42,702 nucleotides of DNA from Hyphococcus sp. (GTDB lineage: Bacteria > Pseudomonadota > Alphaproteobacteria > Caulobacterales > Parvularculaceae), in the NCBI GenBank assembly GCA_028285645.1, contig JANQOV010000156.1:1-42702 (forward strand). Reading direction: 5' to 3'. The translations under genes and the position numbers were made by a program. Under the pieces are notes generated by a model, which saw only the letters and a program-made list of their open reading frames with translations, was not told where the DNA came from and ran no database searches. Shown here piece after piece: positions 8,620-11,853 of the stretch (position 1 is its first letter; each line of letters begins with the position of its first letter).

Positions 8620-8646
8620 GATTTGATTGATAGCGTTTCTGGATGT

Positions 8647-8726
8647 GTCATCCCAAATATAATTTGGGATCCAGGTGTCTTGGCGTTGGGTTTGCCACCC
8701 TGGATTCCAGCTTTCGCTGGAATGAC
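8647..8726. repeat. dispersed intergenic palindromic repeat, copy 1
   Basis: An 80-base element bounded by GTCATCC and GGAATGAC. It contains two hairpins, TCCCAAAT/ATTTGGGA and TTCCAGC/GCTGGAA, and an outer pairing CCAGG/CCTGG. The GTCATCC...GGATCCAGG layout is typical of palindromic repeats scattered between genes in many alphaproteobacteria. It sits between DUF2948 and hisD and resembles the second copy at 10620-10701. As RNA it would fold strongly and could affect read-through or mRNA stability. Confidence 0.75.
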
Positions 8727-8781
8727 GGTTGTGTTGGATTAGATCGCCAATCTAAAAAGCTAATTTTTAGGACAAAACGGC

Positions 8782-10080
8782 ATGGTTCGCAGACTTAACA
8801 ATTCGGCGTCAGACTTCGATGCGGCCTTCGACTCCTTTGTGAATGCGTCCCGCGACGGCGGCGATGATGTCGGCGCCGCAGTCCGCAATATCATAGCAGC
8901 TGTCCGCAAGGAGGGGATGGCGGCGTTGGCGCAACTCACGCAAGAGTTCGACGGGTTTGCGTTGACGGATGACAATCTGCGTTTGACGCAAACCGAAATC
9001 GATGAAGCAGAAGCCGCTTGCGACCCAGAAGACTTGAAAGCGCTCGACTTCGCTGTGACGCGCATCCGCGCTTATCATGAAAAGCAATTACCGCGGGATG
9101 AGCGCTATACGGATGATGCCGGCGTTGTGCTCGGCTGGCGCTGGACATGTGTTGATGCTGCGGGCCTATATGCGCCGGGCGGGCGGGCGGCCTATCCGTC
9201 AAGCGTCTTGATGAACGCGATCCCCGCGCGGGTTGCGGGCGTTGGGCGCCTCGCCATGGCAACGCCGGCGCCGAAGGGTGAGGTTAATCCCTTGGTGCTG
9301 GCGGCGGCGCGGCGCGCGGGCGTTGATGAAATTTACCGCATAGGCGGCGCCCAGGCGATTGCAGCGCTCTCTTTCGGCGCGGGGGAGATCGCGCCCGTCG
9401 ATGTCATTGTCGGGCCCGGCAATGCCTATGTCGCCGAAGCCAAGCGGCAAGTGTTTGGCCATGTGGGCATCGACAGCGTTGCTGGCCCGTCGGAGATTCT
9501 GGTCGTCGCAGACGGGAAGAACAATCCGGATTGGATTGCCGCGGACCTTCTAAGTCAGGCGGAGCATGATCCTTCGTCGCAGAGCGTTCTGATTACGGAT
9601 GATGCCGCGTTCGCTGATGCGGTTGCTGCGGCAGTAGACAAGCAATTATCGAACAGCCCGCGGCGGGCCATTGCCGAGGCGGCATGGAGTGACAACTCCG
9701 CCATCATTGTCGTCGGCGCGCTTGAAGACGCGCCGGCGTTGGTCAACCGCCTTGCGCCCGAACACCTTGAACTTGCCGTCGATGATCCGGAAAGCCTCAT
9801 GTCAGACATCCGCCATGCGGGCGCGATATTCCTCGGACGCTACGCGCCGGAAGCCGTAGGAGACTATGTGGCGGGGCCTGACCATGTTTTACCGACGGCC
9901 CGCGCCGCGCGCTATGCGTCGGGCTTGTCAGTTTTGGATTTTATGAAGCGCACCTCGATCATCGGGTGCGACGAAGCGGCGCTTGGCGCCATCGGTCCCG
10001 CCGCTGCGTGTCTTGCGGACGCCGAAGGCTTGCCAAGCCACGCCCAATCGATCCGGGTGCGGTTGAAGCCTCGCAAATAG
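8782..10080 (+). CDS. hisD: histidinol dehydrogenase
   Basis: Cytosolic zinc enzyme catalysing the last two steps of histidine synthesis, L-histidinol to L-histidine with two NAD+. 432 aa, normal length. Zinc and catalytic residues are present: Gln259 and His262 in SQAEHDPSSQS, the Glu-His pair 327-328 in APEHLEL, the Asp in GDYVAGPDHVLPT, and His420 in LPSHAQSIRVRL. ATG at 8782 follows a weak AGGAC. The last 20 codons (10021-10080) have a diverged in-frame copy at 10558-10617 beyond the next gene, so the present C-terminus may be a replacement. Confidence 0.97.
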   Translation: MVRRLNNSASDFDAAFDSFVNASRDGGDDVGAAVRNIIAAVRKEGMAALAQLTQEFDGFALTDDNLRLTQTEIDEAEAACDPEDLKALDFAVTRIRAYHEKQLPRDERYTDDAGVVLGWRWTCVDAAGLYAPGGRAAYPSSVLMNAIPARVAGVGRLAMATPAPKGEVNPLVLAAARRAGVDEIYRIGGAQAIAALSFGAGEIAPVDVIVGPGNAYVAEAKRQVFGHVGIDSVAGPSEILVVADGKNNPDWIAADLLSQAEHDPSSQSVLITDDAAFADAVAAAVDKQLSNSPRRAIAEAAWSDNSAIIVVGALEDAPALVNRLAPEHLELAVDDPESLMSDIRHAGAIFLGRYAPEAVGDYVAGPDHVLPTARAARYASGLSVLDFMKRTSIIGCDEAALGAIGPAAACLADAEGLPSHAQSIRVRLKPRK

Positions 10081-10137
10081 GCTTACTGCCGCCGGCTAGC
10101 GAATGCCGCAAGACCAAGCTAATGAGGAATTCACTAC

Positions 10138-10554
10138 ATGGCGGACAGGAAGAAGAAGCCGAAACTCCTTTCAGGCGGCAATCCTCAGATAGCCAAAGGG
10201 TACGGCGATGCGCCCGTCCAGGAATATGTCGCAGCAATGCCCGAATGGAAGCGCGATGTCGGGCGCCTTATGGACGAGATTATCGTTCGAATGGTTCCCG
10301 ACGTACAAAAAGCGGTAAAATGGAATTCACCTTTTTACGGCGTCGAGCGCGATCACTGGTTCCTCTCGTTTCACGTCTTTACGCGTTACGTAAAGGTGAC
10401 CTTCTTCCGCGGCGCGTCCCTTGAGCCCCAGCCGCCCGTTAAGTCCAAATATGAGGAAGTCCGTTACTTTCACATTCATGAGGGCGATGCGTTCGAAGAA
10501 CAGTTCGCCGATTGGGTGGCGCAGGCGAGCCAGCTTCCCGGTGAGAAGATGTAA
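10138..10554 (+). CDS. DUF1801 domain protein (YdhG-like)
   Basis: 138-aa single-domain protein of the DUF1801 family: VKWNSPFYG, then HWFLSFHVFTRYVKVTFF and a Pro-rich turn before KSKYEEVRYFHIHE. Related Firmicutes proteins include a frataxin-like iron chaperone, but that role is not established for this branch. ATG at 10138 follows GAGGA by about 10 bases. It lies between hisD and a relic of a second hisD C-terminus, which suggests it arrived together with a hisD tail in a recombination event. Confidence 0.85.
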   Translation: MADRKKKPKLLSGGNPQIAKGYGDAPVQEYVAAMPEWKRDVGRLMDEIIVRMVPDVQKAVKWNSPFYGVERDHWFLSFHVFTRYVKVTFFRGASLEPQPPVKSKYEEVRYFHIHEGDAFEEQFADWVAQASQLPGEKM

Positions 10555-10557
10555 GGG

Positions 10558-10617
10558 CCGCAACACTTGCCGCGCCATGGCTAATCGATCCGTGTGCGGT
10601 TGAATAAATCAAAATAG
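10558..10617 (+). pseudogene. relic of a second hisD 3' end
   Basis: Twenty codons that align with the last twenty codons of hisD (10021-10080) with no insertion or deletion, about 42 of 60 bases identical. Shared features are LP-x-H, then SIRVRL, a Lys and the TAG stop, with the equivalent of zinc-ligand His420 kept; one internal TAA replaces a Gln codon (10582-10584). It starts 3 bases after the DUF1801 stop and is not itself translatable. The simplest reading is the former end of hisD, left behind when a segment carrying a new tail plus DUF1801 inserted. Confidence 0.72.
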
Positions 10618-10619
10618 CC

Positions 10620-10701
10620 GTCATCCGAAGTTTGACTTGGAATCCAGGGCTGCTTGCACAGGAGCATTAAGCCCTGGACCCTGAATTAAGTTCAGGATGA
10701 C
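10620..10701. repeat. dispersed intergenic palindromic repeat, copy 2
   Basis: An 82-base element with ends GTCATCC and GGATGAC. Internal stems are CCAGGGCT/AGCCCTGG and CCTGAA/TTCAGG. It has the same layout and end sequences as copy 1 at 8647-8726 but different stem sequences, as expected for an old repeat family with compensating changes. It begins 2 bases after the hisD relic stop and lies between a plus-strand and a minus-strand gene, where it could also reduce read-through. Confidence 0.75.
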
Positions 10702-10766
10702 GTGTACGGCTAGTTGGTCAAAACTTTCACTGAAAAGCAGGACAGCCAATATAATATGCGCGACCC

Positions 10767-11720
10767 CTAAAACCCGTAAATCACCGAGGCCCGCGCAATC
10801 GTGTCGGTGTTTTCGCGGCCAAGCGGCGGATCGGTTTCATAGCGGTACTCAAAGGAAAGCCCCGTTGAAATGGAATCGGTCAAGTCCGTTGTCAGCGCCG
10901 AGATCGACTGGAAGGTCGTTGTTGGCGATGTCCAGGTCACAAAGAAATCCTGTTCAAAGGTAACGCCTTCGCGGATCAGCCAGTCCATTTCGCTTGCGCC
11001 ATAGAGCGCGAATTCTTCTTCCACTTCCCGGGTTAAGTCGATAGGCGAATAGCGGAAGCCGGGACCGCCCTCGACCTTCCAGACGAAGGGTTCGTTGAGC
11101 GAAATGAAATAGCCAACGCCGGCGCCGCCGAACAGACGGTAGTCGAAGCCAGAAAATTCGTCTTCGTCATAAGAAAATCTGCCGTAGGCGTATAATCGCT
11201 CGTTGAACTTATAGTCGAGCTGGTAAGCGGCGCCCCAGCGTTTCTGGTTGGTGACGCCATTCGATTCAGCGATATCGAAATAGGCCGTTACATTGTGCAC
11301 GAACTTGCCGGCCTCGCGGGCGGCGTCGAGCGCAACGCCAACGGCTGCATTGTCGGAGTTGCCCGAGGCGAAGGAAGCGCCGGCGGAAAACTTGCCTTCC
11401 CATTTGCGTAAAGACAGGAGACCGCCGGCGTCGTCGTCTGCCTCGGCGGTTTCGCTCGCTGCTTCTTCGGCTCCCTCTGGCGGCGTTGCGGCGGCGATCC
11501 GCTCTGCAGATTGTGCGATGATGGCGGGCTCATAATCCGGGAACACCGCCTTCACGGCTTTTGCGACAGCTGCAATCTCGCCGGGATCGCCGGTCTCATA
11601 GGCGGCGTTGAGCATCGCCTGGGCAAGATCGGGGATGGCTGGCGTCTGGCCTTGCGCCGAAGCCTCGGCGATCATCAGGCCAGCGATGGCGAGCGGTCCA
11701 AATTTCCGTTGAATTTTCAC
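10767..11720 (-). CDS. DUF481 outer-membrane beta-barrel protein
   Basis: 317-aa exported protein. A signal peptide (KIQRKFGPLAIAGLMIAEAS, then AQG) is followed by a helical region of about 70 residues rich in Ala/Glu, then from about residue 105 a DUF481 (YdiY-like) barrel starting KWEGKFSAGASFASGNSDN, with alternating strands and a C-terminal Phe (SVIYGF) suited to BAM insertion. I chose the GTG at 11720: AAGGAG lies 7 bases upstream, whereas the TTG at 11726 would be only 1 base away. DUF481 proteins are salt- or acid-induced in some species, but the role here is unknown. It interrupts the hisD-to-UPF0262 run on the opposite strand. Confidence 0.85.
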   Translation of the reverse strand: MKIQRKFGPLAIAGLMIAEASAQGQTPAIPDLAQAMLNAAYETGDPGEIAAVAKAVKAVFPDYEPAIIAQSAERIAAATPPEGAEEAASETAEADDDAGGLLSLRKWEGKFSAGASFASGNSDNAAVGVALDAAREAGKFVHNVTAYFDIAESNGVTNQKRWGAAYQLDYKFNERLYAYGRFSYDEDEFSGFDYRLFGGAGVGYFISLNEPFVWKVEGGPGFRYSPIDLTREVEEEFALYGASEMDWLIREGVTFEQDFFVTWTSPTTTFQSISALTTDLTDSISTGLSFEYRYETDPPLGRENTDTIARASVIYGF

Positions 11721-11853
11721 TTCCAAACTCCTTACTGCGCATATTGGTCTCTCGCCCAGTGGTGATTCATTGCTGATTCGCTGCGAGGCATGAAGCGCGT
11801 GACGGGCGCGCCGAGCGCGGCTACAAGACCGGCAGTGATGATTCGGAAAGACG

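Follow-up and report, generated by a model that had tools for sequence, protein, structure and literature searches.

A second, decayed hisD 3' end beside a DUF1801 gene in Hyphococcus sp., probably the scar of an insertion at a variable gene boundary

In contig JANQOV010000156.1 of Hyphococcus sp. (42,702 nucleotides, analysed over its whole length and referred to here as the window), the 3' end of hisD is present twice, once as the end of the gene itself and once, in decayed form, behind a small DUF1801 gene that follows it. The question raised by this locus is how the repeat came about, and in particular whether the end that hisD now carries is its original one. An earlier note on this DNA had read the arrangement as a recombination scar, in which a segment carrying a hisD tail plus DUF1801 entered at the end of hisD, replaced the tail of this essential enzyme, including a zinc-ligand His, and left the old tail behind.

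The source genome amounts to 3.55 Mb in 163 contigs, the window being contig C94 (G, C and L numbers denote genomes, contigs and loci, respectively). The gene order in the window is a gene that we take to be murA (6897), a 150-aa ORF (8167), hisD, DUF1801, the second hisD end (hereafter the relic), a palindromic repeat, a gene presumably of the DUF481/YdiY-like family, and a gene presumably of the UPF0262 family (11854); family assignment by profile covers hisD and the DUF1801 gene only. The hisD gene (8782-10080, + strand) encodes an intact histidinol dehydrogenase of 432 aa. It matches PF00815 (E 4.9e-164) over profile positions 9-411 of 411, so that the profile match reaches the C-terminus, and a solved HisD can be aligned with residues 1-429. 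Its present 3' end (10029-10080, + strand), identified by the repeat alignment and aligned to the C-terminus of solved HisD, is the functional copy of the repeat and contains the His of LPSHA, which we take to be a zinc ligand. There follow a spacer (10081-10137, + strand) with a sequence that, judged by eye, resembles a ribosome-binding site ahead of DUF1801, the DUF1801 gene (10138-10554, + strand, 138 aa) and the relic (10566-10617, + strand). The DUF481/YdiY-like gene (10767-11726, - strand) is convergent with hisD and is a probable ancestral neighbour, considering that homologs are found downstream of hisD in relatives. Palindromic intergenic repeats of the GTCATCC...GGATGAC type were seen by eye before hisD (8643-8740) and immediately 3' of the relic (10618-10701); the repeat region at 10615-10725 has four additional partial matches, in three places, in the same genome.

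Recount and translation confirmed that a second copy of the last 20 codons of hisD, with one internal stop, lies after DUF1801. When 10021-10080 and 10558-10617 are aligned without gaps, 42 of 60 bases are identical; at codon positions 1, 2 and 3 (20 each) there are 13, 16 and 13 identities and 7, 4 and 7 differences, respectively. The present tail translates as AEGLPSHAQSIRVRLKPRK* and the relic as PQHLPRHG*SIRVRLNKSK* (asterisks denote stops): a CAA codon of hisD reads TAA in the relic, producing the in-frame stop, and both copies end in TAG. Over the initial 8 bases of the 60-mer only 3 positions agree, and the match becomes convincing from about 10029/10566 onwards; a separate alignment located the strongest core at 10029-10067 versus 10566-10604 (33 of 39 bases, 85%). 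Between the end of DUF1801 and the core of the relic there are 11 bp. The spread of the differences over all codon positions, together with the stop, fits decay without selection.

It is hardly credible that the similarity between tail and relic is a chance resemblance. The repeat is admittedly short, and weak matches that rise above their own 20 shuffles occur in some relatives (scores 37-41) and in named hisD loci (up to 36). However, the local score in the window is 57, far above the best of 20 shuffles (36), and the best of 29 relatives, 41, is a gapped alignment on the opposite strand. In a gapped local alignment of hisD and spacer with 10546-10760, the score was 28, compared with 16 for the best of 300 randomised versions. 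A scan of both strands of the window for 60-mers similar to the present tail gave, apart from the relic, nothing with 33/60 or more identities. The same genome (86.6% complete) holds no equal match elsewhere: the 21-nt core is exact at two sites only, and the sole further match has 3 mismatches. A chance match was rejected on the combined results of the 60-mer scan, the shuffles and the own-genome search.

A hisD match was present in 57 of 60 genomes, the source genome included. The 3' side of hisD was read in 29 relatives, i.e. in 28 of the hisD-matching genomes and in Amphiplicatus metriothermophilus, the downstream sequence being short in some of them (242 bp in G016, about 1 kb in G018 and G034). 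None of the 29 has a second hisD tail of comparable strength (local score at most 41, versus 57 in the window); in three, a gapped alignment scored more than 2 above the maximum of that relative's shuffles. The same holds for 80 named hisD loci, scanned on the + strand only with 20 shuffles each, where the best match (L089) scored 36 versus a shuffle maximum of 31 of its own. Five of these loci repeat relatives: L034 is Amphiplicatus, and L032, L033, L035 and L036 are apparently G026, G011, G015 and G033. No DUF1801 gene follows hisD in any of the 29 relatives, nor was one detected at the 80 named loci with E values up to 0.01.

Other genes are found at this position in the relatives. Of the 29, 17 have a DUF481 homolog in the sequence read beyond hisD; in five of these (L021-L025) the two genes run tail to tail and their ends share 21-23 nt. 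Convergent glutathione-transferase-like and rhodanese-like genes, as named by eye from their ORFs, stand 3' of hisD, either directly or after another gene, in 9 of 11 relatives. With either DUF481 or this pair in place, the 3' flank of hisD is variable in the genus. The source genome has its rhodanese-like/glutathione-transferase-like pair elsewhere (G000:C138:19644-21220, L171 and L172), 59% and 56% identical to that of G021. There is no sign that the relic moved with the pair, since the best tail and relic scores around the C138 pair are 27-31 (taken without shuffles), versus 57 in the window. A second hisD-like gene, of 37-38% identity, occurs in two congeners (G002:C7 and G014:C3), and G013, G017 and G020 have only a hisD-like gene, of 39-46% identity.

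The DUF1801 protein of the window scores 52.4 bits against PF08818, above the cut-off of 27.2, and is thus a member of the family. Its gene is patchy and plausibly mobile. None of 27 congeners, several of them represented by incomplete genomes, has a homolog; among the relatives sampled, 5 of 59 do, and with a threshold of E <= 1e-30 homologs were detected in 73 of the order's 397 other genomes. In the 29 of these 73 genomes whose DUF1801 loci were read (about 1.5 kb on each side, less at some contig ends), the gene is never near hisD, DUF481, UPF0262 or murA, so that a position beside hisD is seen only in the window among the loci read. Plasmid records with a DUF1801 homolog number 96, of which 64 are from Sinorhizobium. 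A scan of viral contigs for close relatives returned none, and phage cargo was consequently set aside as an origin for the gene. In a DUF1801 tree of 30 rows, the window protein adjoins that of G029, a genome of the same family (96/88), and therefore a distant donor is not indicated. The G+C content of DUF1801 (0.544) is below that of hisD (0.620), but the third-position values are alike (0.647 and 0.674, respectively), and composition is no strong sign that the gene is foreign.

The best reading of these data, and one that we regard as reasonably probable, is that the repeat is the species-level scar of the entry of DUF1801 at the hisD 3' end by recombination. About 485 bp with DUF1801 (10081-10565) would have been joined after the hisD stop in one event, and the insert would then be flanked on either side by about 52 bp of hisD end sequence. 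Copying of the hisD end while recombination or fill-in repair took place would produce this arrangement, and so would crossover at the site with a fragment, or a circle, that brought a hisD end with it. The copy attached to the hisD body would have remained functional, and the outer copy, which is not translated as part of hisD any more, would decay at all codon positions. Since hisD was kept intact, the cost would be low and the outer copy free to decay. The present tail would be native, or at least of the same genus.

This entry of DUF1801 at the hisD end is consistent with the direct-repeat geometry, with the neutral type of decay, with the lack of a comparable second tail in the 29 relatives and at the 80 named loci, and with the absence of DUF1801 from all 27 congeners. 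The other genes found 3' of hisD in relatives, a tail that is not unusually divergent and the G+C content of DUF1801, lower than that of hisD, are also in its favour, as is, with almost no resolving power, the best placement of the relic beside the window's own hisD. The part of the earlier note that concerns a scar is in agreement with these findings, i.e. the duplication is real, a patchy DUF1801 gene lies between the copies, and no comparable second tail was seen in relatives; the replacement of the tail is the part that these findings do not show. Insertion and duplication presumably occurred together. Among the genomes read there was no intermediate, with either two tails but no DUF1801 or DUF1801 behind a single tail, and one joint event is accordingly not proven. 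Other points also count against this reading. With about 52 bp, the duplicated stretch exceeds the ordinary target duplication of a transposition. The third-position G+C content of DUF1801 is close to that of hisD. The phylogenetic discordance near the hisD end and the codons of the relic, both described below, lean weakly towards a swap of the tail, and the nearest DUF1801 in the tree belongs to the same family, so that loss of the gene in congeners is a possible alternative to its gain here. The locus resembles known partial gene duplications that flank an acquired gene, in that a patchy gene lies between short direct repeats derived from the end of a host gene, the outer of which has decayed, but it differs from them in being a single case.

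If the tail had been replaced, strains without DUF1801 were expected to have a tail closer to the relic. The opposite was observed: all 29 relatives have a tail that agrees better with the present tail (26-40 of 48 positions) than with the relic (21-34 of 48), a comparison that the decay of the relic biases. Nor does the present tail look foreign. Its identity to 11 of the 29 relatives ranks at 0.50-0.94 among 18-codon windows of hisD, its third positions are more alike than those of the gene body in 8 of the 11, and overall it was not found to be more divergent than the gene body in these relatives, as a foreign tail would be. A donor with the hisD-DUF1801 arrangement was found neither among the 29 outside DUF1801 loci nor among the 80 hisD loci. 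The proposed swap of the hisD C-terminus with its zinc-ligand His is thus not borne out, and a tail donor from outside the genus finds no support in tail similarity, in the DUF1801 loci or in the hisD loci.

A tail swap from within the genus is, judged from the sequences, possible. According to this alternative, which we consider somewhat unlikely, hisD recombined with an incoming fragment that bore a hisD end together with DUF1801; the working tail would then be an import, and the relic what is left of the native end. The more specific proposal that the last 30 or so codons of hisD, with the metal-ligand His, were exchanged between congeneric species along with a hitch-hiking DUF1801, the old tail being left as a fossil, is unlikely. 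The idea draws on placement tests, from which, as from the concatenated tree, five outgroup rows (G028, G029, G033, G034 and G035) were left out. Of 26 half-overlapping windows, the one comprising the final 96 nt of the hisD core (about 9973-10068) is the most discordant, at 10.66 log units (the next 8.25), and is best placed beside G001 and G015; the 48 nt directly before the tail are the most discordant of 27 segments (9.62). By comparison, hisD without its last 30-odd codons, taken with the neighbouring genes, groups the window with G021 and G016 (91/88). The grouping of the window with six genomes that have DUF481 directly 3' of hisD was rejected (p-AU 0.0004), a result that may be driven by Amphiplicatus, which is one of the six and is placed elsewhere. 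The last 48 nt, the tail alone, are best placed beside Amphiplicatus (bootstrap 0.39), but 7 of the 26 other segments are equally or more discordant, and the signal fades as the 3' stretch lengthens (6.17 log units at 144 nt, 6.52 at 192, 5.74 at 240 and 1.91 at 288). It should be noted that the maximum among 65 simulated windows was 3.39 log units, which 11 of the 26 real windows exceed; the model is therefore a poor null, and no probability value attaches to the 96-nt signal. The codons lean weakly to a swap. At two of the three synonymous differences between tail and relic, the relic codon is the commoner one among 17 hand-picked close relatives (CCG in 13 and CAT in 14 of 17), but at the third it is the present codon (CGG in 7, CGT in 2 of 17), and among all 29 relatives the two are tied, 8 to 8. 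The relic itself is best placed beside the window's own hisD, with the ten best placements within 0.64 log units, so that its placement has almost no resolving power. These points have to be set against the ordinary similarity of the present tail, its nearness to the tails of all 29 relatives and the want of a donor among the loci read.

Integrative elements can insert at the 3' end of a gene and rebuild that end, and the window does show a rebuilt gene end on one side of the insert and the old end on the other. A remnant of such a site-specifically integrated element, which would have used the end of hisD for attachment and later have shrunk to DUF1801, appears nonetheless improbable. No integrase gene was found within the insert: the 485 bp between the copies contain no ORF of integrase size, the longest ORF touching them has 152 aa, and the ORFs of at least 60 aa overlap DUF1801 or hisD (the profile search covered DUF1801 alone). 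One small gene is thus all that the hisD ends enclose here, in contrast to integrative elements. The two copies are not near-identical, as attachment repeats would be (85% over 39 nt, 70% over 60 nt), a difference that decay could explain. In addition, none of the 29 relatives has a comparable second tail, no integrase was recognised by eye after hisD in 11 relatives, and the scan of viral contigs found no close relative of DUF1801. As far as titles and the beginnings of abstracts tell, the literature searched for integration at the hisD end or for gene-end scars holds nothing on point.

A tail swap within the genus would, if true, be a neat case of mosaic formation at the extreme end of a core gene. 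As an insertion scar, the locus is an ordinary, lineage-specific one at a variable gene boundary and is not evidence of a replaced active-site residue. Because the working tail resembles those of relatives, the consequence for the HisD enzyme is probably nil. The scar would thus be the fossil of a patchy accessory gene coming to adjoin a core gene without breaking it.
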